Source: a virus. Taken from it: a stretch of 64,000 bases of DNA. The stretch spans positions 50,093-114,092 of the IMG/VR virus record IMGVR_UViG_3300030508_000018; one strand, 5' to 3'. Below the pieces are notes generated by a model that saw only the letters and a list, made by a program, of their open reading frames with translations, was not told where the DNA came from and did no database searches. This document shows, one piece after another, positions 4,201-52,757 of this stretch. Made by a program: the position numbers and the translations under genes. Every line of letters begins with the position of its first letter. The stretch's first letter is position 1.

Positions 4201-4239
4201 AATGCCAAATGGGATAAAACCTGTTTGGCATTTATGCCG
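4201..4239 (+). terminator. Hairpin with ATGCCG tag
   Basis: An inverted repeat AATGCCAAA ... TTTGGCATT with a short loop follows the stop of the gene at 3802 and is followed by TTATGCCG. The same hairpin plus ATGCCG arrangement recurs at many gene ends in this window. Confidence 0.7.
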
Positions 4240-6680: not shown

Positions 6681-7214
6681 TCACGCTGCTGCGACGTCTC
6701 GATATTCCTGCATCTTAATATCTTCTTTAGCAAACTTATCCCGAAGTAGATCGCCAAGCGACATTGGTTTGGCATCAGACATCTCATCAATGACTTGTTT
6801 ATCCCCTGGTAAAGGTTCTTCTGCGCCTTGTTCCTGTTCCAAGTCAAATGCATCGAGAATCTCTTCAGACATCGGAATATAATCTGCCATCCGATCAGCG
6901 TAACGCTGCGCTGCGCGTTGAGTCTTAAAAAGCCCATCACGCGAACACACAGGCATTACATTCCCTGGTGATTTTATCCCATACTGTTCCAGCCATGGAA
7001 AATAGAGGCCGTTCCGTTCCCCGTCAATTACTTGACTGCAACCAAACATCCATGGATCTCCTGGTAAATCTGGAAACGGACGTGTAAGAATAACCAATCG
7101 AGACGGTTCTTTTACAAATACTTCACCATCACCGTTGATATAAACTGGCACTTCCCAGAATATCTTTCCATTCTTGATATCCTTTATTTTTACTGCACCT
7201 GATTTTGATGACAT
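6681..7214 (-). CDS. Hypothetical protein
   Basis: 177 residues from the ATG at 7214, which has GGGAGGAAT as ribosome binding site. The N-terminal 100 residues look globular (KIFWEVPVYINGDGEVFV, PWMFGCSQVIDGE, RAAQRYADRMADYIP) and the C-terminal part is acidic and helical. It stops at a TGA with coding-like sequence continuing in the +1 frame. No recognised family; part of the early small-gene block. Confidence 0.6.
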   Translation of the reverse strand: MSSKSGAVKIKDIKNGKIFWEVPVYINGDGEVFVKEPSRLVILTRPFPDLPGDPWMFGCSQVIDGERNGLYFPWLEQYGIKSPGNVMPVCSRDGLFKTQRAAQRYADRMADYIPMSEEILDAFDLEQEQGAEEPLPGDKQVIDEMSDAKPMSLGDLLRDKFAKEDIKMQEYRDVAAA

Positions 7215-7215
7215 T

Positions 7216-7320
7216 TTATTCCTCCCTATTAGAAAGTTTCGGAGTTGGAGTTTCCATTTCCAAAGCATCCTTATCTTTTTGACGACTTTCACGATGTTTC
7301 ATCATTTCACCAAACGTCAT
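7216..7320 (-). CDS. Very small charged protein (34 aa)
   Basis: ATG at 7320 preceded closely by AAAAGGAG gives MTFGEMMKHRESRQKDKDAL and ends at 7216. The same frame is open further back to about 7376, and the tiny upstream gene could be joined to it by a +1 shift. Either two tiny genes or one interrupted 71-residue gene. Confidence 0.4.
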   Translation of the reverse strand: MTFGEMMKHRESRQKDKDALEMETPTPKLSNREE

Positions 7321-7336
7321 CGACTCCTTTTTCTGT

Positions 7337-7432
7337 TCAGCATAAAGTTCTTGAGTGCGGTAAAGCACCAGTTGAGGTTAATACCTGACCTGGGTATTTA
7401 CATCCTGTCACTAACACATACTTCTTTGTCAT
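7337..7432 (-). CDS. Very small protein (31 aa)
   Basis: A good ribosome binding site (ATAGGAGAATACC) precedes an ATG at 7432. The product MTKKYVLVTGCKYPGQVLTS ends at a TGA at 7337, and the +1 frame then continues as YRTQELYAEQKKES into the next small gene. The strong start signal suggests it is translated. Confidence 0.4.
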   Translation of the reverse strand: MTKKYVLVTGCKYPGQVLTSTGALPHSRTLC

Positions 7433-7441
7433 GGTATTCTC

Positions 7442-7939
7442 CTATCTGATTAATCCGTGTTTTGTTAACCACTCAACAAACTCCGGGTGTTTAGTAATAA
7501 GGTCAATATTAGTTTTAATGCTCAAGCTTGCAAGACGTATATCCCCACTGCTGATGAATGCGTATAGTTCATCCAAACACAATCGAACGTTTTTGTCTGT
7601 CTTTACGTCCTTTATCAGTTGAGAAAACTGCGTACCCTTTATGGCATAAACACGCGCCAGTTTATTATGGTACTCTTTTCTCATTTCATCCGACGCAGTA
7701 TAAAGATTAATATCGTCGTCAGTGTTATAGCCTGTATTGAGATCAGATCCACAACCAAGAAGAACGTCTGCGCTATTAAGACTGTCTAACTCAATGACTG
7801 GTGAAGATAGACTATTAGCTCCACCTACCCAGACTTCTGATGGTTCGCCTTTAACTGTAGTCTCAGGCCAATCTTTGAGTATTTCTTTCAGCTTAGTTAT
7901 GGTTAAACAACCGCCGAACTCTGAAGTAGTTAAATGCAT
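7442..7939 (-). CDS. Hypothetical protein
   Basis: 165 residues with ATAGGAAAA before the ATG. The N-terminus (LTITKLKEILKDWPETTVKG ... GEPSEVWVGG) resembles short phage proteins in which an LxxxLxxxPD/E-type motif is followed by a strand-rich domain, but no function is known to me. The C-terminal half is helical. In the leftward early block. Confidence 0.65.
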   Translation of the reverse strand: MHLTTSEFGGCLTITKLKEILKDWPETTVKGEPSEVWVGGANSLSSPVIELDSLNSADVLLGCGSDLNTGYNTDDDINLYTASDEMRKEYHNKLARVYAIKGTQFSQLIKDVKTDKNVRLCLDELYAFISSGDIRLASLSIKTNIDLITKHPEFVEWLTKHGLIR

Positions 7940-13279: not shown

Positions 13280-15304
13280 CTAGCTTATGTCTCCTAATAC
13301 TTCATATGGTAATAACAATGCGTCAAAAATGTGATTTGGTCTATTTGTATTAATAAAACTCATCGGTTTAATAAGCACGTCCCGATGTCCTTCATAGGCC
13401 ATTGCTGTTGATAGACTGCGCTGTTGCATCGACATCTTAGTTACTCCAAGCGCTGATCTTGTCCAAGGCTTTGGTAAACTATAATCATTATTATCAGCAG
13501 AAACAATCATAATCCCGTACAACACTACTTCAAGTACTGCTAGATTAACTACCAGTTTTTCATTAACTAAATCGTACAATTCTTGAAGTACATATGCCGG
13601 TGATACATTCTTATCTCGTTCCTGCATTTTATCAACAGAAGATTCCAACATAGCAGCTATGGCGCCACTATGGTCAGACATGTTGATATGTTTTAATGGC
13701 AGTGTTAAAAACGGTTTAGTCCAATCCCAATTTGACATATCAAAATAGTAATCACCACCAGCATCGATTGTCCATCGGTTTTCTCGTATTAGTTTAAGCA
13801 TATCTAAAGTCATGCTAGCTAAACGTCTACCTACTGAAACGTCAATTCCAATTGGATCGGCATCATCTATTTTAATACTAATTTTAGATAACTCAGATAC
13901 TCGACCGATGTTCAAGTCATCAATATTTTTTATTTCTATTACATCTGTTAAGTTCTTGGCGTCGTCTTCTAAGATTATGAATTGTACTTTCTTTCCTTTT
14001 AGATTATCCGCTAGCCAATATGAATTTTCATCAGAAGGATCAATTCTTAAATATTTACGATGTTCACTTTCTAGAATAATCCCTTCTACAGCAGAGCTAC
14101 CGTCAAGATGCTTTAACGATAGTACGTTCTGCGATGATTTTGAAGCAAGGGCAGTGCAACATACTTGACCTATGTTAGTGTCTTTCGGAACAGATAACGA
14201 CAGTTGACCAAAACAAACACTGCAAATACCATACGGATCAGGATGTCTACAATGTATAACTGATCGAAGTTTTAATGTTCTCCCAATTAATTCATGACTG
14301 TCTGCATGAATGGTCTTTAATACACCGTCGTCATCCATGTAGTTTTTTCCAATCAGCTGCTTCAAATCTCCTTGGCGAACAGAGCCTTTTCTATTTTCTG
14401 TTTTTCTTACATTCCAATATACATATTCAGTTGACCCGCAATCACCAGTGTGTAAATTACAAACGATCTGCGACATCAGTTGCAGACGTCTAGAAAAGTA
14501 CTCGGCTTGTTGTAATGGAGTTTTACTAAATGACAGACTCTTTGCAGCTGACCGAGATTCAATTAAAGAATCATGCAACAAACGTATTCCTTGTGCAAAT
14601 CCACGAACAATTGGGTGCCTAAATACATTTGAATCAACATCGGTCAAAACACCTCTAGCACTAACGCATTGTTGCACTTGTCCCATGCTTACTAAATTAG
14701 ACCTAGATGCTTTTGATATAGCGTTATTAGGTAATTCTTTACCGCTCATCAAAACACTCTTTACAATTTTGTGCGTGTCTTCTATATCCTTCTGTCCTGG
14801 ATTTGGGAGTTCTTGAAGTCTGGTATTAGCTTCGCGGATTGTTGGGTTATTTAATACCTCGATGAAGTCTGTTATATCTAGCGATACGACATATTCTTCT
14901 AAACGATAGGATAAATCGTTATACATCGCATTCGTATAACGATAAATGCGTTCGCATAACTTATCCCTAAAATCATACTCAAATTCAATATTTGATTTAT
15001 CCTCAGGATGTGTTTCGAAATGGTTATCATACACGGACCACATTGCATTGCCGAGTAACTCTAAATGAGTATCAGAACCAAGGCGCTTACTATCACCCAA
15101 TATATTGGTAAGATGGTGTTTTGGCAATAAAGGCGTATCTTGAAATTCTCGATGAAAATCCCATGAATATGAACTATAGAGCGTTGCCCTATCATTCGTG
15201 CTAACGATTTCTCCGTTATCGAATACAAGATCAAAAGACCCTGTTAATATATCCCATAACTCTTTAGTTGTATATTTAAGTAACGTTCTTGCTAATATTT
15301 TCAT
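13280..15304 (-). CDS. RNA polymerase beta-prime subunit, C-terminal half
   Basis: 674 residues with AAAAGGAAT upstream. The segment PIVRGFAQGIRLLHDSLIES then QAEYFSRRLQLMSQIV (about 231-281) matches the bridge-helix region of bacterial beta-prime. C289 plus C352, C361 and C364 (HCRHPDPYGICSVCFG) reproduce the second zinc site, and SSQNVLSLKHLDG fits the trigger loop. It corresponds by content and by adjacency to phiKZ gp74, a subunit of the non-virion RNA polymerase that transcribes late genes. The matching N-terminal half is the intron-split gene at 27.5-29.7 kb. Confidence 0.92.
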   Translation of the reverse strand: MKILARTLLKYTTKELWDILTGSFDLVFDNGEIVSTNDRATLYSSYSWDFHREFQDTPLLPKHHLTNILGDSKRLGSDTHLELLGNAMWSVYDNHFETHPEDKSNIEFEYDFRDKLCERIYRYTNAMYNDLSYRLEEYVVSLDITDFIEVLNNPTIREANTRLQELPNPGQKDIEDTHKIVKSVLMSGKELPNNAISKASRSNLVSMGQVQQCVSARGVLTDVDSNVFRHPIVRGFAQGIRLLHDSLIESRSAAKSLSFSKTPLQQAEYFSRRLQLMSQIVCNLHTGDCGSTEYVYWNVRKTENRKGSVRQGDLKQLIGKNYMDDDGVLKTIHADSHELIGRTLKLRSVIHCRHPDPYGICSVCFGQLSLSVPKDTNIGQVCCTALASKSSQNVLSLKHLDGSSAVEGIILESEHRKYLRIDPSDENSYWLADNLKGKKVQFIILEDDAKNLTDVIEIKNIDDLNIGRVSELSKISIKIDDADPIGIDVSVGRRLASMTLDMLKLIRENRWTIDAGGDYYFDMSNWDWTKPFLTLPLKHINMSDHSGAIAAMLESSVDKMQERDKNVSPAYVLQELYDLVNEKLVVNLAVLEVVLYGIMIVSADNNDYSLPKPWTRSALGVTKMSMQQRSLSTAMAYEGHRDVLIKPMSFINTNRPNHIFDALLLPYEVLGDIS

Positions 15305-27463: not shown

Positions 27464-29658
27464 TTACTGCACAAAAAGTAATTCTGACATTCGTTGAAAC
27501 TTAACCGGATCAACAACACTGTCGTCGCTATGAATATACGAAGCCAATGTGCTGACAACTGGTTTCGGCATCGATAAATTTCGCGATACCATACGTGGGT
27601 TATTCAAATCAAAAGTTGATTTATGCGGAGCTAGATTCTTTAATTGTTCCGTTATACATGTATCGATTGATAATGTTGCGTTTAACTGATCCTTTTGTCC
27701 ATCTAATTCGTTAGATTAGATCGGTATGCTGAATACCTGCTTTATGTTTCCATAAAGAACTGACTATATCTTCTATTCGTAATGAATAGCCTTCCGTTTC
27801 GGAATCACTTGATTCCTACTCGCTTACGCGATAGTCGATGAACCTTCTCCTGTACGGAGCTTGGCTGCTGATTGCCCAATCTCTATTCTTTTAAAACCTT
27901 GGCTTTGTCTTTCGACTCGCAGTGGTGAATAAAGCTCTCAGGGGTTTCCAGACAGTTAAAAAGGTTTTTAGACAGCAATTTTGTTTACCGTCAAAATCTG
28001 CATTAACTTATTGTCCAATTAGTTCGTTACACTAACCCGGTATGTTGTACCTGCTATATATCTCTATATAGAACAGACTATATCTTCATCCTCAGCTTTA
28101 TCTGTTTGGATGTCCACTGCTTCGGAGCCACTAGCTCCTACTCCCATTACAGGATAGTCGTTGAACCTTCATCATTCTTAAATGGTTACCAATTTACATG
28201 GTAACGATTAGGCTCTTTCATTTAAGTTAAGATGCTTGGCTGCTGATTGTCTCTACCAGATTATTTTCAAACATTGACGTATGTGTTTTCACACTCCGCT
28301 TTAGTTAATCTGTCTAACAAGAGTTTCCAGCAATTCAATGGATTTACATTTATCATTACTGATAAACTGGCCTGTATAAATATTATTTATAGTAATAGTA
28401 TATTATTTTACTATAGAATTACTTATGTTCCTAAGCCTACTACTGACAAAATTGAAAGTGATACAGTGGGGATGTTCGGATCAGTTTTTATTTTCGTAAC
28501 AAACATTGCTTGTGCTGACCCGCGTTCCAAACTCGGATTTCTTTGAAATATCACAGGTATGCCCTTGTATGGACATTCATTAATTAACAACTGAAACAGT
28601 TCATCTAACAGTGGATGATACTTTTGTGAATGTTCGTTTAGAAATGCTTTTGCACCATTGGGAGTAAATCCTCTACGCAATAGTTTATTCGTTAAATGAA
28701 TACCTAATACGGATACTCCAATACCCCACGGGACATGCAATTCATCATAATCGTGATTCGCTGTAAGCGATGAAATCACTGCTCTGAAACTAAAATGTGA
28801 TCTAGTTCCAAATACATGTTTTCTAAATATTCCTTCTTTTTTAGCTAATGTAAAACGATATAAATCGTCATAAAAATCAGACAGTTGATAAATTGCTTTA
28901 ATCGTCCTATTTTGTTTTGTTCTAACGGAATGATTTGCCAATAAATTATCAATGCTACACATGGTGCGGATCGCGTCCACTGCTCCTGTTACAATTGGAT
29001 CAACATATGTTCCTACGGTTGTTTCCTCAATAACCAATAGGGAACGATTAGGCAATGGCAGATAGTCAGAGAACACACAAGATCTTTGCTCTCTCAACAA
29101 TTGTTCTAAAGGTTCTTCTACGCCTTTCTTTGCTCTGAATCCTTTTACATTAAATAACGATGCGATAATACTATCAAAGTTATCAACAAAATTATTATAA
29201 CCTCGTTGGATTCCTAGCTCTTGTACAGTTTCCATAATTGCCGGAACTTTGACAGCTGGGTGATATGTACTGTCAGCTATCCATCGAATAATGTCGTATC
29301 CAGATTTTGAAAACTTTTCGGATAACATTGTTAACACAATTGGATTGATAAGTTTACTCACTCCTTCTGGCGCTCTAATCCAAACTAACGGCTCAAGATC
29401 TTGTTCTAAAGGTGCCTTTACGAATGTTCCGCATTGTTTACACTTCACACCAACGTTATGTTCTCCCTTTATTTCCTGGCATTCGCAAGTAGGCAAATTA
29501 CTAAGAAGATCGGTATTGTATTTGGTGTAAATCATCGCATTAAAAGCTTCTTTATCTATTTCAGAACCTTCTGATACGTTGTTAATAATGATTGGTTCTT
29601 TAGTGCTATATTTTGAAAACAGTTCATCAAAGTTTACGAGTTCCAGTGAAATTCCTAT
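27464..29658 (-). CDS. RNA polymerase beta-prime subunit, N-terminal half, split by two introns
   Basis: Three exons: 28434-29658, 27986-28005 and 27464-27691, about 490 residues when joined. Exon 1 carries a zinc-binding stretch (CECQEIKGEHNVGVKCKQCG) and the conserved segment before the active site. Joining the exons gives SVVGFNADFDGDQLNATLSI; NADFDGD is the universal Mg-binding motif of beta-prime. Exon 1 alone would run into a stop 11 bases into the intron. It corresponds to phiKZ gp55 and, as there, lies next to the nuclear shell gene. Upstream of the first ATG (29535) the frame is open for 41 more coding-like codons to an AGGAG at 29665-29669, but only ATC, ATA, ATT or CTG are available as starts. 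I give ATA at 29658 as best spaced. Confidence 0.9.
27692..27985 (-). ncRNA. Group I self-splicing intron (intron 2, 294 nt)
   Basis: On the reverse strand the core elements lie in order: AATCAGCAGCCAAGC (P4/Q type, 27859-27873), GGTTCATCGACTATCG (R/P7, 27829-27844) and GAAGATATAGTC (S, 27762-27773). The upstream exon ends in GACGGU, which pairs with GCUGUC ten bases into the intron with the required U-G at the splice site. The last intron base is G at 27692. No open frame for a homing endonuclease fits inside. Confidence 0.92.
27986..28005 (-). other. 20-nt micro-exon of the beta-prime gene
   Basis: The exon TTAATGCAGATTTTGACGGT lies between the two introns. Its first two bases complete a Phe codon begun in exon 1, and the rest codes NADFDG. 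It therefore supplies all three catalytic aspartates except the last Asp, which begins exon 3. Boundaries follow from the reading frame, the terminal U of the exon and the terminal G of the upstream intron. Confidence 0.88.
28006..28433 (-). ncRNA. Group I self-splicing intron (intron 1, 428 nt)
   Basis: Core elements on the reverse strand: AATCAGCAGCCAAGC (28234-28248), GGTTCAACGACTATCC (28152-28167) and GAAGATATAGTC (28076-28087). The upstream exon ends in GGCU and the intron ends in G at 28006. GGCC about 60 bases inside could be the guide for P1 but is weaker than in intron 2. The 3' ends of the two introns are alike (CATACCG ... TAACGAA ... TGGACAA.AAG), so they share ancestry. No homing endonuclease frame is present. 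Confidence 0.9.
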
Positions 29659-36668: not shown

Positions 36669-37174
36669 TGTTGTTTTTTCCTTTTTCCAGTAGCAAATTA
36701 TAAGTCGTGTAGATATTTTTTAAAGTTTTTAATCTTTAAAAAAGAAGACGGCATAAAAAAAAGGGTTCCAGTTGTTTAGACCGGAACCCATAAAAAGAAT
36801 TATCTAGCGAGGAGAGCACTAGATAACGTGCGGCGACGCACACAACAAGATAACATTAACTCAGACAACTTTGCCTTGTTCAGCATCTCTACCCGAAAAG
36901 GAATAACGAGGAAATGCACAGACTAAGCTACATTGCCCATTTCATTAAGTTATATATAAGGAGTAAAAATATAACTTAATGAACCTAGGAGTTAATGCTC
37001 TCTTAGCACTATTTCATTTGATAAATTTCAAACAAAACTTCTTAACAGTGATCCAACGGAGGTAAAAACCACTATTAAGCAAACCGGGTGTGCCAAACCC
37101 TTTACTGTCAAACAATTAATGTTCCCAATAAAAAATAACTGAAAAACATTAGTTGCTCTACATACAATACATTT
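36669..37174 (-). other. Noncoding region with structured elements
   Basis: About 500 bases without a convincing frame. It holds several inverted repeats: TCTAGCG ... CACTAGA at 36803, and CATTAAGTTATAT ... ATATAACTTAATG around 36940-36985, with TAAGGAG and GGAGGTAAAA in between. It ends leftward in a tagged terminator (36749). The layout of hairpins plus terminator suggests a noncoding RNA transcribed leftward after the gene at 37175. Confidence 0.5.
36749..36789 (-). terminator. Hairpin with T run and ATGCCG tag
   Basis: Reverse strand GGGTTCCGGTC ... CTGGAACCC, then eight T residues and ATGCCG. It closes the noncoding region and insulates the DNA polymerase gene. Confidence 0.8.
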
Positions 37175-44712: not shown

Positions 44713-44738
44713 GTTATATATGTCTGAAATATTCTAGG
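44713..44738 (-). promoter_or_regulatory. Early-type promoter
   Basis: Reverse strand CCTAGAATATTTCAGACA directly followed by TATATAAC; identical core to the sites at 8632, 46862 and 47749. About 70 bases before the tiny gene at 44644. Confidence 0.75.
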
Positions 44739-45836: not shown

Positions 45837-46439
45837 TCAGGAAGTTAAGTTCCTGATTTCAGCAAGGGCCTTCCGGCCAATGTTTGCTATCCGCATCAGA
45901 TCGTTGTCGCTCATCTTCGACAACATATCCACTGTTACCTTCCCGCCAAGTTCGTCGGTAAGATTATTCTTGACTCTTACTGATAACTTAGAGTCTTGAA
46001 TCAGTGTTGTATTAGGCACCCGCGTTAAAACGGCAGCGCTCTCTGGTACTATAAATCCACGATGTTGAAACACCGCTACTTTATGAGTACCGCCATCAGC
46101 CGTAGCTGCCTCAGAGCTTACGCGAAGCGTAAAGGCATACATCGGTATGATACCGACCTTGATTAACGCATCTTCCAGCGCTGACATCAGGTAAGGCGCA
46201 CCTCCAATCATTGCGGAGGTAATGGGTGGTTCACCCAGTGCTCTTGCGTATTCTCTATGCGCGACAGCTATATCAGCAATGCTGGTCGCTGCCTCACGAA
46301 TGAAAACTGATGTCGGCATACTGTCAAAGGTCAACAGCGCTATGAGTTGAAGCAGGAACCCACCAGTAACATCAACCAAACCAGCGAGCAGCTGGTCCTT
46401 TGTTGCTTTGTGTTGCGTTAAATTCAAGATTGCATTCAT
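45837..46439 (-). CDS. Two-domain protein ending in an RNAP alpha-CTD-like fold
   Basis: 200 residues. The first 145 residues (NLTQHKATKDQLLAGLVDV; DIAVAHREYARALGEPPITS; MIGGAPYLMSALEDALIKVG; AFTLRVSSEA) follow a family of bacterial hypothetical proteins I have seen in mobile elements but cannot name. The last 50 residues (KLSVRVKNNLTDE ... VTVDMLSKMSDNDLMRIANI then GRKALAEIRNL) match the helix-hairpin-helix pattern of the RNA polymerase alpha C-terminal domain (LSVRTxNCLKxxGIxTVxDLxxxSxxDLLxIxNxGxKSLxEI). It may act on host or phage transcription. A variant palindromic element lies upstream at 46495. Confidence 0.65.
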   Translation of the reverse strand: MNAILNLTQHKATKDQLLAGLVDVTGGFLLQLIALLTFDSMPTSVFIREAATSIADIAVAHREYARALGEPPITSAMIGGAPYLMSALEDALIKVGIIPMYAFTLRVSSEAATADGGTHKVAVFQHRGFIVPESAAVLTRVPNTTLIQDSKLSVRVKNNLTDELGGKVTVDMLSKMSDNDLMRIANIGRKALAEIRNLTS

Positions 46440-47781: not shown

Positions 47782-47952
47782 TCAGCTTCTAGCGGCAATG
47801 ATTGCTTTTGTAACCTTCCATCCAATCGCGTATCCTACAACAGCAGATACAGATAAAATACAAAGAAAGACTGGTATACTCATACCTTTCTTTTCTTCAT
47901 ATTCTTTTACTTCTGCGTCAGCTTGTTCCGGTGTTATGTGTACGTTTTTCAT
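47782..47952 (-). CDS. Tiny membrane protein (56 aa)
   Basis: ATG at 47952 after GGAGAATGTC. The N-terminal 25 residues are charged (NVHITPEQADAEVKEYEEKK), followed by a transmembrane helix (SIPVFLCILSVSAVVGYAIG) and a short basic end. Orientation is the reverse of the other cluster members, which have the helix first. Confidence 0.6.
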   Translation of the reverse strand: MKNVHITPEQADAEVKEYEEKKGMSIPVFLCILSVSAVVGYAIGWKVTKAIIAARS

Positions 47953-48013
47953 GACATTCTCCATTGATTAAAAAAGTGTTTTGAGTAACGATATTTCTAT
48001 CAAGACTCGCAAC

Positions 48014-48042
48014 TACTACGTATGTTTGAAAAAATCTAGAAT
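48014..48042 (-). promoter_or_regulatory. Degenerate early-type promoter
   Basis: Reverse strand TCTAGATTTTTTCAAACATA then CGTAGTA, a diverged relative of the early promoter, about 60 bases before the gene at 47952. Confidence 0.5.
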
Positions 48043-48094
48043 CTATTTAATTTAAAATCAATAACGAATAATGAATTCCACTCAATCTCACCAA

Positions 48095-48123
48095 GATTAT
48101 ATATGTCTAAGATATTCTAGGAT
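48095..48123 (-). promoter_or_regulatory. Early-type promoter
   Basis: Reverse strand CCTAGAATATCTTAGACATA then TATAATC; two changes from the main form. With the degenerate copy at 48014 it heads the leftward membrane-gene cluster. Confidence 0.65.
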
Positions 48124-48133
48124 AGTGTTTTTA

Positions 48134-48166
48134 ACGGCATAAATGCCAAGCTATTCACTTGGCTAT
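48134..48166 (-). terminator. Hairpin with ATGCCG tag
   Basis: AGCCAAGTGAATAGCTTGGC on the reverse strand followed by ATTTATGCCG. It lies upstream of the early promoter at 48095 and would end any leftward transcript from the noncoding region. Confidence 0.6.
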
Positions 48167-48176
48167 TTTTATAATG

Positions 48177-48521
48177 TTGTCATTTTTACAACCTGCAATT
48201 AATATACTTAAGTATACTATTGGGGCTCCGCCCCCAAAATCCACTAAGGGAAGACTGCCCAACAGGCTTACCGCTTATGATCATTTTATATAATTGCAGG
48301 TTTTAGTTTCTGCAAATAATAGATTATGACAGTAAAAAATTACTTTAATTGTATTTTTGATAATTAATATTTCAATTATTGATTTTTATTTTAAGAAAGT
48401 AATTTTGATTATATTTATTATAATCAATACAAAAATCTATTGGAGCCTTTAAAGTTTACTCATTGGGCCGTGTTGTCAAAATGACAACATTATATTTAGT
48501 TATTAAATTAGCGTTATTATT
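48177..48521. other. AT-rich noncoding switch region; possible origin or control locus
   Basis: About 345 bases separate the leftward membrane cluster from the rightward genes. Two near-identical inverted repeats bound it: GTTGTCATTTTTACAAC (48177) and GTTGTCAAAATGACAAC (48472). Inside, CCTGCAATTA (48192) pairs with TAATTGCAGG (48291), enclosing TATACTTAAGTATA and a GC hairpin TTGGGG ... CCCCAA. Then follows about 130 bases that are almost pure A/T. Origin, transcription switch, or a structured RNA all fit. Confidence 0.5.
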
Positions 48522-48557
48522 GTGAACGTTCTTACATTTAATAAAAAGGAATTCGCT

Positions 48558-49187
48558 ATGAGTTTACTAAGATTGAGATTAGCCGTCGAGGCTTACGATG
48601 CCCCTCAAGACACAATCCCTAACGATGGTGTTAACCAAACAATCGTAATGAAAGGTCCTTTGTCTGATATATATACAAAGGCACTGAATATTGCCTATGC
48701 AAAAAAAGATAAACTTACTGGTGAAGTAGAACCAGTAGAAGAAACTAATATCGTACAAGATACTAAGGTAGGTGGCGCAATGCCACCTGCTAATAATATT
48801 CTTCAAGATCCAGTAGCAATCGAAAATTTAGTTAGTGCGTTAGAAAGTCAAGCTATTGATGCAGCATTAATGGAAAAACTTTCTCGTACTCTAAACGATG
48901 CATCAGACGATGCTCCACCTACAGATTCGTTTCAGACGGTCTATGGAGTGTCTAGAGACGATTTAAATGAAGAGGACCTAGTTTCTATAGCAAAAGACGT
49001 ATCGACTCAACCTGAGTCCACTAGCGAATATATCGTCGTGATTGATCGTACAGGATGTAGTAGCGATGACCCAGAACAAGTAATGAAATTATCTAGCGCA
49101 ATTGAAAGTTTAATCGATGCGTTTGGTGGTAAGGTATTTAGTAGCTTAGAAGATTACGTACATTACCAAGCTACGCTATTGGGTTAA
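48558..49187 (+). CDS. Hypothetical protein
   Basis: 209 residues from the ATG at 48558 after AAAAAGGAAT. Start SLLRLRLAVEAYDAPQDTIP; acidic overall, with SSAIESLIDAFGGKVFSSLE near the end. N-terminal residues LRLRLAVEAY recall propeptide-like starts of phage internal proteins, but I cannot confirm it. First gene of the rightward pair after the noncoding switch. Confidence 0.6.
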   Translation: MSLLRLRLAVEAYDAPQDTIPNDGVNQTIVMKGPLSDIYTKALNIAYAKKDKLTGEVEPVEETNIVQDTKVGGAMPPANNILQDPVAIENLVSALESQAIDAALMEKLSRTLNDASDDAPPTDSFQTVYGVSRDDLNEEDLVSIAKDVSTQPESTSEYIVVIDRTGCSSDDPEQVMKLSSAIESLIDAFGGKVFSSLEDYVHYQATLLG

Positions 49188-49235: not shown

Positions 49236-50483
49236 ATGGAAACTATAAAAAGCATATTTGATGAGGAATGTGTTAAACTTGTCATCGATAAACATTTACT
49301 AAAAAAGATTAGTCAGTATCAACTTTTCTTTGTAAATAAAAATGAGGACCATATTAAGTTTTTTGGTGGTAATTTACTAGGTGTGCAAGTAGTTAGGTTC
49401 ATGCCGCAGGACTATGATCATTGGTTCGATGAAGTGCTTTGTATTGATTATGGTCCATTAGGTGAGCGTCTAGAAACCCTAGAAGAAATACAACCAGAAT
49501 TTCGTAAAGTTACAAGTGATACTTTTAATCTATCTTGTATTTGGTTATGTCATGCTATTTTAAATAGTCATTACTTAACCCCTGAAGAAAAACAAACTGG
49601 TATGATTGATACTTTACTAGTTTTGCAATATAAATTCATTACAAGTTTACTGTATCATTATTTCAAATACCCAGCAGATAGACAAGTAGCAGAGGCAGCA
49701 TATGCTCAACTAAGCTATAAGTTTGCCATTAAGGTGTATGGTAGCTGGGCTGCTGTTTTAAGAAATAGAGCCGAATCAATTTGCTCACAGATAGATCCTA
49801 TTACAAACAAGCCAAGTATTCACTACGACGCTATTATGCATATGGGAGTAGATAAAGACGTAACTTATGTTTTATCGGATTCACAGGGACGTATTCGTGA
49901 TATTGTAAAGAACTACTATTTTATTTTTGATATGGTTAAAAATAGTAATGGTAGGATTATTAGCACTTCGTCAATAGTGGAATATGATGGTGAAGTATTC
50001 CTTCGTGATAAGACTAAGAACTTAACAGCATATGGTCGTTATCTTAACTCCATTATTACAGATAAGAATTCTTTTATTCGTAATGAACTAGTAGTTATCA
50101 TTGAAAAACTAATGCACACAATGTCTCCTAGGTTATTCATGGAAACACTTGTGTGGATGTCTACAAACTATAGACAAGATGGTGTTGGTGTTATTGAAGA
50201 AGTTTTAAATGAAACACTAATTCATAGTTTTGATTATCTTAATCAAGAACGTGGTGTTGTGAGAAACACGACCGACATTCCTGGATTATTAGATAAGTTA
50301 CGTGGTGTTTACATGTCGTCTAGAAGCACTGATCCTATTTTAATTTCTTTACGTAGTAAAATGGAAACAGTAGTTAAATTAGCTACTGGTAATAAGACAG
50401 AGTCAATGATCGCTAGCGTGCGCACTGCTACGATGTTATACATAGTGCTCAGAGCCTTTACAATGAAGCATTATACTGGTTAG
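49236..50483 (+). CDS. Putative virion-associated protein
   Basis: 415 residues, mostly helical (ESYQLFFVNKNEDHIKF-like start: KISQYQLFFVNKNEDHIKFF). It stands next to the terminase gene in the position of phiKZ gp24 by order. No catalytic motif. Followed by a bidirectional tagged terminator. Confidence 0.55.
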   Translation: METIKSIFDEECVKLVIDKHLLKKISQYQLFFVNKNEDHIKFFGGNLLGVQVVRFMPQDYDHWFDEVLCIDYGPLGERLETLEEIQPEFRKVTSDTFNLSCIWLCHAILNSHYLTPEEKQTGMIDTLLVLQYKFITSLLYHYFKYPADRQVAEAAYAQLSYKFAIKVYGSWAAVLRNRAESICSQIDPITNKPSIHYDAIMHMGVDKDVTYVLSDSQGRIRDIVKNYYFIFDMVKNSNGRIISTSSIVEYDGEVFLRDKTKNLTAYGRYLNSIITDKNSFIRNELVVIIEKLMHTMSPRLFMETLVWMSTNYRQDGVGVIEEVLNETLIHSFDYLNQERGVVRNTTDIPGLLDKLRGVYMSSRSTDPILISLRSKMETVVKLATGNKTESMIASVRTATMLYIVLRAFTMKHYTG

Positions 50484-50487
50484 TATA

Positions 50488-50538
50488 CGGCATAAATAGC
50501 ATCGGTATAATCCGATGCCATTTATGCTTCTATGCCGC
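50488..50538. terminator. Bidirectional hairpin with ATGCCG tags on both sides
   Basis: CGGCATAAATAGCATCGG ... CCGATGCCATTTATGC then TTCTATGCCG. It sits between the convergent genes at 49236 and 50538 and shows the tag in both directions. Confidence 0.8.
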
Positions 50539-52757
50539 TATTGCCTTCTAATAATTTCAGCTTCTGATAAAGGTTCACTTGATATACAGCCAGCTGGATT
50601 GAAGTAAACATTATCAGGCTGGACACTATTATTTTGTCCGTACTGATAACCACGACGCCTCGTGCGTTTCTTCTCTTTCGCTTGCTTAATCAAGTTGTCA
50701 AGACTGTAAATCTCACCTACTTCTAGAATCAAACGTCTACTCAACATGCGTAATTCATGTTCCATTTGCAGAGTAATAAAATCATCGTCTTCTTCAGTAA
50801 GTAGGTTATAAAGTTCGTCAATACGTTCTCTAATATATTGTTGTTCTTCACGTCGTTCTGTTTCTAATGGTGTTTCGATAGGTTTAGGTGCAAAAGAAGT
50901 CATGACCTTATCGATACCATAGAACGAAAGATTCTTACCTTGATGTAATAACCAATTCGCTAATAACCACCCAATTACCATATCGTCATGCTCACCAACT
51001 GGATGGTCAATACGCCCGTTCCTAGTGACAAGTCCTTTAATCTGGTCTATCAGGTCTTTATCATGAATCTTTTCACAACCACGTTTAGCTGCATTCTGTA
51101 ACGTAGTAGTATAAAGACCCGTTCGACTAGTAGCCCCAGATCCGGATGTTGAAAAACCAAACAAGTTCTTAAGTCTATCATAAATGTCATTTGAGCGCCT
51201 GCCAATCGGTACTTGAATTTCTTTCCAATAATCTTTATATTGAACAGGATCATTCACAACCCAATTAAATAGACGTTTGAAAGGATCAATGCCGTATTGT
51301 GGGAGCCAATGAAGTAGGTAATCCAACAATCCAACACCCGTAGAACGTTTTTCAATAATTGCAGTGATATTAGAATAGGTGACTAAAATAGAACAAACCC
51401 ACTCTGCAAATTTAATGAGATTTGTTTCATTAAAAGTTCCCGCTGCAACAACGTCTAACGTATCTGCGTCAATTAAAACTAATGAAATATCATCTCTTCC
51501 ACTAGCTTCACTTGTATCCATTCCCAAGACAAATCTACCTGTCTTCATCCGTTCTTCAATTTCATCTTCAGGGATATACCATCGTGTAATATATCCATGA
51601 GGTTTACTAATGTCAGTATAAAGATGAGACATGTAGCTATTAGAGATTTTCTCTAATATAGTTACCGCCAGCGGATGTGTCTGACTACCTGAAGTCCATC
51701 GATTAAAATAATCTCGATCAGCTTCTTCGCCAGTCATCGTTGTTTGCTCTAGTTTTTCCCTGAGCCACTGGTCGGTTTTTCCGAGCTGCTTGTGATCAAA
51801 AGTGGCATTAATACGACAGACACCACCATGAGAATTACGACGAATAGTTGCATGTAGGTCCTCTATATCTTTACAATCGAAGAACTTTTCTGTCCAGTTG
51901 GCAGATTCGCTCAACATTTTATAAATGAAAGCACCGTCAGCATCATCTTTTTTACCAGCAGTGGTTGTTAGGATAGTGCCATACGGTGTACCCTGTCGTT
52001 TCGCAGCATCAGCAGCAGCTCCCATAGAAGCTAGTGCTGTCGGCAAAGCTAATCGAATATTTGGATGGTACGGACCTTCATCAATATGGAATATTGGCGA
52101 AGTTAAGCCCCGGCCCATTTTCAATGCGCTTTTCTCAGCCATTTGTGCAACATGTGTAGTGTAAGTGTTATCTAAAGATTTTACACTAACCTGTTCCATA
52201 TTGTTTAAATCGTCTCTTGTTCGTTGTTGAAGATAGAGAGGCAATTCTTCACCAATGCGTTTGAGACGATCAACGTTTGCTCTTCTGAGAGTGTCGTTTA
52301 ACGTCATTAAGTTAATTGCTGTGTTCTGACATAAAATATTCAGTAAGTAATTCATTAATGCATCTGTTGACACCGACTTACCAGTTTGACGCGGTTGAAT
52401 CAATATTAACATTACATGGTTAAAAAATAACCAGAACAATGCTATATTACCTCTATTAGACTCTAACATATCTGGCTCGTTTTTACCAAGACCAGGTATG
52501 CGACAACACTCTCTAAAATAAAACCAAGGATTAATTCGACATTCTATTGCTATAGCAGCTATTTCTTCAATTGTTAAGTTAGGATCAAATGGATCAATCC
52601 CTTTTAATTTTGGATTTACTAATGCCAAAATAAAGGAGTCATTTCTTATTCCCATACTTCGATACAATGAAGCTAACCTAACAAAACTTCGATTAGTAGT
52701 TTCTTTATTTATTATAGCAGTAGGAAAATACTTCCAGTCTTGTTCAAATAGTATCAT
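50538..52757 (-). CDS. terL: Terminase large subunit
   Basis: 739 residues. QPRQTGKSVS (121-130) is the Walker A loop, SPIFHIDEGPYH (220-231) the Walker B with catalytic Glu, and FVLGMDTSEASGRDDISLVL (409-428) begins the RNase H-like nuclease with its first metal Asp. Further nuclease acidic residues are expected near IIEKRSTGVG and DDMVIGWLLANW. It is the ATP-driven motor that cuts and packages phage DNA. Matches phiKZ gp25 by content and position. The C-terminal 100 residues are polar and may contact the portal. Confidence 0.92.
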   Translation of the reverse strand: MILFEQDWKYFPTAIINKETTNRSFVRLASLYRSMGIRNDSFILALVNPKLKGIDPFDPNLTIEEIAAIAIECRINPWFYFRECCRIPGLGKNEPDMLESNRGNIALFWLFFNHVMLILIQPRQTGKSVSTDALMNYLLNILCQNTAINLMTLNDTLRRANVDRLKRIGEELPLYLQQRTRDDLNNMEQVSVKSLDNTYTTHVAQMAEKSALKMGRGLTSPIFHIDEGPYHPNIRLALPTALASMGAAADAAKRQGTPYGTILTTTAGKKDDADGAFIYKMLSESANWTEKFFDCKDIEDLHATIRRNSHGGVCRINATFDHKQLGKTDQWLREKLEQTTMTGEEADRDYFNRWTSGSQTHPLAVTILEKISNSYMSHLYTDISKPHGYITRWYIPEDEIEERMKTGRFVLGMDTSEASGRDDISLVLIDADTLDVVAAGTFNETNLIKFAEWVCSILVTYSNITAIIEKRSTGVGLLDYLLHWLPQYGIDPFKRLFNWVVNDPVQYKDYWKEIQVPIGRRSNDIYDRLKNLFGFSTSGSGATSRTGLYTTTLQNAAKRGCEKIHDKDLIDQIKGLVTRNGRIDHPVGEHDDMVIGWLLANWLLHQGKNLSFYGIDKVMTSFAPKPIETPLETERREEQQYIRERIDELYNLLTEEDDDFITLQMEHELRMLSRRLILEVGEIYSLDNLIKQAKEKKRTRRRGYQYGQNNSVQPDNVYFNPAGCISSEPLSEAEIIRRQ

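Follow-up and report, generated by a model that had tools for sequence, protein, structure and literature searches.

The window, by which we mean the whole 64,000-nucleotide stretch of DNA analysed, is part of a virus record of 114,092 bases (IMG/VR IMGVR_UViG_3300030508_000018). Among the relatives listed for its large terminase gene (50538-52757, minus strand) and for a 415-aa gene (p415; 49236-50483, plus strand), the best were those of Burkholderia phage FLC9 (59.5% and 57.8% identity, respectively). Since p415 is also the counterpart of PHIKZ032 (phrog_2921, a family without assigned function), we regarded the window phage as phiKZ-like, of the jumbo kind. Own RNA polymerases have been described as a known trait of phiKZ-like phages, and a 200-aa protein encoded at 45837-46439 (minus strand) matched the RNA polymerase alpha C-terminal domain (PF03118, E 1.9e-7). 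Alignment to five relatives placed the likely start of the p221 gene at ATG 48558, giving a protein of 209 aa (48558-49187, plus strand) with homologues in FLC9 (gp22), FLC8 (gp20) and the related loci L008, L006 and L021. The ORF list gave, on the other side, a leftward ORF of 60 aa (47782-47964, minus strand), which had no Pfam or PHROG match (E<=0.01). The gap between these two genes thus extends from 47965 to 48557. It contains no sizeable ORF, was exceeded in length within the window only by the group I intron region when ORFs of 45 aa or more were counted, and separates leftward small genes from a rightward operon composed of p221 and then the PHIKZ032 homologue. The switch in gene direction, on which the original prediction had partly been based, was thus confirmed.

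The same prediction described two GTTGTC repeats bracketing a structured segment, and both were found, GTTGTCATTTTTACAAC at 48176-48192 and GTTGTCAAAATGACAAC at 48472-48488. They belong to 23-nt arms (48170-48192 and 48472-48494) that are 96% complementary, and there is a second inverted pair of 15 nt (48187-48201 and 48291-48305, 93%). In the predicted fold, the 23-nt arms could close the whole interior, and the inner stem, found by inverted-repeat search and by folding, closes a sub-domain (48187-48305) which contains a GC hairpin with counterparts in relatives (hairpin A, 48222-48234; C(GGA)G loop on the minus strand). The segment was far more foldable than shuffled sequences: the z-score was -3.5 for 48185-48310, -6.4 for the plus strand of 48125-48521, and -6.1 for the minus strand of 48138-48494. 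In a separate two-strand run, 48125-48521 gave -5.9 and -6.2, i.e., both strands were about equally foldable. The claimed AT-rich tract was also present, as the 120 bp richest in A/T in the window (from 48321); at 87.5% A/T, “almost pure” was a slight overstatement. Other features on the right side of the gap include a AGTAAAAAATTACT motif (48331-48344), for which related A-run or T-run core motifs occurred in some relatives, an AT-rich hairpin followed by TTTTTATTTT (48357-48382; sequence and fold), AATACAAAAATCTA (48426-48439), and a G-rich stretch, ACTCATTGGGC, which together with the GTTGTC hairpin GTTGTCAAAATGACAAC occupies 48458-48488 and recurs in other loci by eye.

The two GTTGTC repeats were not equivalent. 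By eye, the right one resembled a feature recurrent in L102, L100, L098 and L060, and no counterpart of the left repeat, or of the left arm (48170-48192), was seen in these relatives. We considered whether the palindrome might be a repeated operator and rejected this idea, as there was no excess elsewhere: when as many as 3 mismatches were allowed, the window contained 4 matches to the 17-nt pattern versus 3.79 by chance, of which the copies with 0 and 1 mismatch were both in the gap and the remaining two had 3 mismatches. A mobile element with 23-bp terminal inverted repeats was also dropped, since no clear target duplication was apparent by eye and the contig contained no other full copy.

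Promoter-like and terminator-like signals at the borders

At the left border, a 25-nt motif (plus strand form TATATGTCTAAGATATTCTAGGATA) is located on the minus strand at 48100-48124. With up to 3 mismatches, six copies were found in the 114-kb contig, all in the same orientation and, by inspection, all upstream of leftward genes (here, the 60-aa gene); similarly, 4 of 4 copies in FLC9 were upstream of leftward genes. We infer that the motif is probably a promoter reading leftward. Because its copies precede leftward genes, a rightward promoter, suggested by the TATG which it contains, was dropped. Copies in the window were at 44717, 46865, 47753 and 48100, and the motif is longer than TATG, the published phiKZ late promoter motif.

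Next to it is a leftward terminator signature (48134-48163, minus strand), in which a hairpin (48145-48163) is followed by ATTTATGCCGT on the minus strand. The hairpin also has a T-run on its plus side and may work as a terminator in both directions. The combination of a hairpin and TATGCCGT recurs across the contig (for example, at window positions 4233, 36755, 48141 and 50494) and likewise in FLC9. Not counting sites within genes and a single intergenic TATGACGT site, there were 12 intergenic TATGCCGT, TATGCCTT or TATGCCAT sites in the contig, 8 of which lay 28-51 nt past the end of a same-strand gene. The other four were the gap copy at 48141, window 36755 (nearest gene end 420 nt off), contig 68335 (opposite facing) and a site whose hairpin is weak and which lies 123 nt from a gene end. 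In FLC9, 15 of 20 near-exact sites had a same-strand ORF ending nearby by a lax criterion (ORF of at least 40 aa, end within 150 nt). As a control, a strong abutting hairpin was present at 8 of 15 TATGCCGT sites versus 19 of 300 sampled other TATG sites. These observations make the hairpin with TATGCCGT a candidate terminator-like signal that tends to mark gene ends, and as such it would be useful for mapping operons in phiKZ-like phages. It has been reported that phiKZ late promoters have TATG with G as the start (PMC4666361). This TATG is also found within the signature, so that terminator and promoter might conceivably overlap, and signals for phage polymerase are expected in the gap; yet, unlike phiKZ late promoters, TATGCCGT behaves as a terminator mark because it is placed after a hairpin at gene ends.

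To the right of the signature at 48141, there is no leftward gene before p221, which suggests a leftward transcript starting inside the gap. Alternatively, with the plus strand T-run available, the signature may be a stop for rightward readthrough. Among 18 loci with the element, grouped partly by a similarity that includes the terminator block, the signature was present on the minus strand in 14 (counting L095, whose match is located more to the left and might be that of another gene) and, as a control, on the plus strand in 1. In 8 other loci with long gaps, it was found on the minus strand in only one and on the plus strand in none.

At the right border, ATTATTGTGA (48516-48525, plus strand) is located approximately 32 nt ahead of the p221 start codon and, by comparison with relatives by eye, is a probable rightward promoter of p221. 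Strings similar to CCATACTGTGA or CAATATTGTGA were seen by eye approximately 30-80 nt before p221 in many relatives, and also in L006/L053, a locus without the element. The exact 8-mer TATTGTGA was not enriched before genes in the contig itself; thus, the promoter reading comes from comparison between phages only. With signals of this kind at both borders, “control region” was a fair description in a limited sense, and “master control” would be a conjecture.

Counterparts in related phages

Related loci were collected using nine aligned sequences of the 415-aa protein as query, and the best 80 of 181 loci were used after removal of duplicates for gap inspection, profile searches and a similarity network. 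Many of these best 80 had long noncoding DNA upstream of p221, and in FLC9 and IMG/VR relatives the element occupied the orthologous divergent position beside p221 and p415. Gap lengths based on ORFs were distorted by chance ORFs in GC-rich elements; for example, the FLC9 gap measured 173 nt by ORFs versus 719 nt by annotation. The network consisted of 66 single-sequence queries from upstream regions against 71 sequences, in which two loci were linked if a query matched the gap of the target on the same strand. There were 143 matches in target gaps and 324 elsewhere, the strongest of which we take to be homologous coding DNA. At E<=1e-3, 14 loci, FLC9 included, formed one component. Counterparts in related phages were thus found, both as long noncoding DNA at the orthologous site and as sequence links among loci.

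Seven sequences constitute the FLC9 clade, in which the gap aligned throughout, with invariant blocks as long as 19 bases and with indels that were not multiples of three. A second clade comprised six loci (L093, L095, L096, L098, L100 and L102), and a profile built from them matched FLC9-clade gaps and that of L067 on the same strand (E 7.1e-6 for FLC9 and 3e-16 for L067). Over five rounds and up to E 10, this profile never listed the window. The window joined the network at E=0.0024, via query bases 144-250 (48081-48187), which mostly cover the promoter/terminator block, and no long match was found between its interior and FLC9. Among 18 pairs tried with the window interior, that with L051 was the best: 48165-48500 shared four collinear matches with L051 (AACCTGCAA, CAGTAAAAAATTACT, TATTTCAAT and AATACAAAAATCTA, the last an identical 14-mer in the same order). 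Of 3000 global shuffles, one reached the resulting chain score of 47, and of 3000 local shuffles none did (0 of 300 in an earlier run). On the plus strand, the best 336-nt stretches of the window versus L051 fell in the gap, and one minus strand stretch (from 47880) also scored 47. The same chain test gave weak support for L054 (15 and 27 of 3000 shuffles) and none for L060 (728 and 822 of 3000). These matches suggest that the window interior may be homologous to the elements of other phages.

Several features recurred by eye in relatives. These were a GC hairpin, in many cases with C-tracts after it, the A-run or T-run core motif, another hairpin with a TTTTTTAAAAAA-like stretch behind it, and a stretch rich in G, which in one clade preceded a GTTGTC hairpin resembling the right repeat of the window. 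The A-/T-run core motif was present in 11 of 34 loci scanned (the L067 copy being far upstream) and occurred in either orientation between clades, which would fit either a DNA site or an RNA. High foldability was also observed in all five relatives folded: z-scores were -5.0 for FLC9, -5.8 for L008, -4.9 for FLC8, -3.9 for LucasX, and -5.4/-3.5 for the left half of L021. The FLC8 and LucasX gaps (483 and 434 nt, respectively) had no sequence link to the main component.

In contrast to these long gaps, loci such as L053, L052, L068 and L072, and the phages DT01, Noxifer and fnug (a phiKZ species), had only a short spacer at the site, which in fnug was approximately 90 nt. L052 and L053 are close relatives, and the element is therefore dispensable. 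It is thus positionally conserved but patchy and fast-changing. Exact patterns from the window were found in viral contigs only in L013, and those from FLC9 only in L021, L022 (same contig as L008) and L023. L013 is the sole other IMG/VR copy of the region and was identical over 6614 bases, so that variation within the lineage could not be used for the window. In the phage collection, the window gap had no close DNA relative and only an insignificant 41-nt match, the FLC9 gap matched only FLC9, and the L095, L070 and L051 gaps were unmatched. The FLC9 record has no annotation inside its copy of the element, whose precise coordinates (record positions 13850-14470) are now available in a phage isolated on Burkholderia glumae.

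A possible leftward RNA and its rivals

We give about an even chance to the reading that the element is a leftward noncoding RNA gene of approximately 350 nt in phiKZ-like jumbo phages. In the window, the RNA would be read from the minus strand between 48494 and 48138, ends which we infer from the features present there: it would begin near the right GTTGTC hairpin (~48494) and end at the hairpin-TATGCCGT terminator (~48138). Such a gene would be separated from its leftward neighbour by the terminator and the neighbour's own promoter, and from the rightward operon by a promoter of the operon itself at ~48520. By analogy only, we would guess that the RNA works together with phage proteins or assembles into an RNA complex. 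If transcribed, it would represent a phiKZ-like phage RNA gene overlooked by protein-based annotation.

Folding energies did not pick a strand. The minus strand was favoured, as the best reading of the sequences, by the bias of the terminator signature (14 of 18 versus 1 of 18) and by the loops of hairpin A. On this strand, 12 of 15 loci had a GNA or GNRA-like loop with a C-G closing pair; in these 15, a GC hairpin found by a script was judged by eye to be at the place of hairpin A. Of the 12, 7 belong to the FLC9 clade, so the count corresponds to approximately 6 of 9 lineages. The script found no hairpin A in other loci such as L051, L054, L093 and L101. GNA loops stabilise DNA hairpins too. 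Of three blocks in the FLC9 clade, two had consensus-folding z-scores of -3.1 to -4.4 and the third had -0.3 and 0.5; the block adjoining p221 was no more foldable than shuffles. Double-changed pairs in this clade were not above column shuffles, either in the left block (2 versus a shuffle mean of 2.4 on the plus strand, 1 versus 2.1 on the minus strand) or in the right block (6 versus 5.3 and 5 versus 4.2). The test involved seven FLC9-clade sequences with few changes, and the looser second clade was folded without the column-shuffle control; covariation was rejected as proof of an RNA.

The main rivals of the ~350-nt RNA are a plain spacer and an element acting at the level of DNA. An ordinary divergent spacer would consist of two promoters and a bidirectional terminator with AT-rich, non-functional DNA between them. 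It would account for the promoter-like and terminator-like signals at both borders, for an interior that has no long FLC9 match and was missed by the profile, and for the fact that a number of relatives manage with just a short spacer. We nevertheless consider it unlikely, given the blocks of as many as 19 invariant bases shared by the seven FLC9-clade sequences, the fold z-score of about -6 in the window, the collinear motifs shared with L051 and the ordered features which recur by eye in many loci. A replication origin, or a protein-binding or cruciform site whose hairpins act as DNA, appears rather improbable. The region had been called the best origin or master control candidate in the window, and the origin reading found no positive support: cumulative GC skew had no sustained turning point (a weak test in a 114-kb fragment), 47900-48800 yielded no family of direct repeats, and the element is absent from the site in several phages of this group, including L053, fnug, Noxifer and DT01. 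The strand bias of the terminator signature also argues against a DNA element, whereas the AT-rich tract adjoining GC hairpins, the core motif in either orientation, the G-rich tracts seen by eye on the right side in several relatives and the equal folding of both strands are in its favour.

A further possibility is a long regulatory 5' leader of the p221 operon, such as an attenuator or a riboswitch-like structure. The structured region is directly upstream of p221, and terminator-like hairpins are present on the plus strand at 48145 and 48470. If ATTATTGTGA is the rightward promoter, the structured part is probably not a p221 leader, as this motif lies just ~32 nt before the start codon; a similar promoter-like string precedes p221 in the element-less L053, and the FLC9-clade block next to p221 shows no excess foldability. 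A leader therefore seems very unlikely to us.

Known RNAs and further candidates

Rfam 15, searched over the window at the gathering score, revealed only two group I introns, which form a tandem pair elsewhere (27740-28388, minus strand; 83 and 89 bits), and no match in the gap. A permissive scan of 47900-48700 gave one match with E 4.7, far below the gathering score. Relatives L015, L008, L021, L023, L016, L017, L014, L006, L051, L060, L095, L102, L070 and L063 also had no Rfam match. In full-text searches of an incomplete open-access library, no paper was recognised as describing the element, which does not show that it is unpublished. The nearest kind of known system is GOLLD and ROOL, large structured phage-encoded noncoding RNAs without assigned function that are often located near tRNA islands (PMC12286853). 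In comparison, the RNA proposed here would be shorter, has no Rfam match, lies in a window in which no tRNA genes were found and lacks covariation support. Grad-seq of phiKZ, a phage of the same broad group, has also yielded noncoding RNAs, including the ~100-nt 3'UTR of PHIKZ298 and the ~180-nt 5'UTR of p40 (PMC8545117). As described there, these differ from the proposed RNA in being end parts of mRNAs, shorter and encoded at other loci.

Two other long noncoding gaps were observed in this group of phages. In FLC9, a 770-nt gap separates gp10 from gp11, which is PhuZ by PHROG match. Within this gap, a 707-nt segment (FLC9 record 7083-7789; L015:1425-2131, minus strand) is unannotated, has no Rfam match and ends in hairpins with the same terminator signature. 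Its leftward strand had a fold z-score of -7.6 (20 shuffles), and a search with it in 14 IMG/VR records gave matches of 75-79% identity in 4, with the same partial match in two of them. The four aligned sequences had 37 double-changed pairs, compared with a mean of 11.2 and at most 16 when the columns were shuffled 16 times. Pairs on the opposite strand were also above shuffles (36 versus 11.9), but the leftward strand had the lower consensus energy (-421 versus -364) and more one-sided changes (25 versus 8), as expected from G-U pairing in a leftward RNA. The gap beside phuZ thus probably encodes a large noncoding RNA. This case, the stronger of the two, makes leftward large noncoding RNAs credible in the phage group and is no proof for the element at the p221 locus.

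The other long noncoding gap is in the window itself (36669-37174, minus strand) and adjoins a large leftward gene. Its 346-nt candidate (36755-37100, minus strand) had a fold z-score of -8.5, a minimum free energy structure identical to the centroid, and a terminal hairpin with U8 and TATGCCGTC. DNA searches with 36669-37174 gave only matches of 18-20 nt at the terminator end, in 2 of 15 records, and beyond these no homology to the 707-nt RNA of FLC9 was found. Taken with the p221/PHIKZ032 element, the phuZ-side and 346-nt candidates tentatively suggest, with more doubt than confidence on our part, that phiKZ-like jumbo phages may have an unrecognised repertoire of large leftward noncoding RNAs sharing the hairpin-TATGCCGT terminator. 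Such a repertoire would match GOLLD and ROOL in kind and be unrelated to them in sequence. In the window phage, the phuZ-gp10 position of FLC9 corresponds to a short gap near 40.7 kb.
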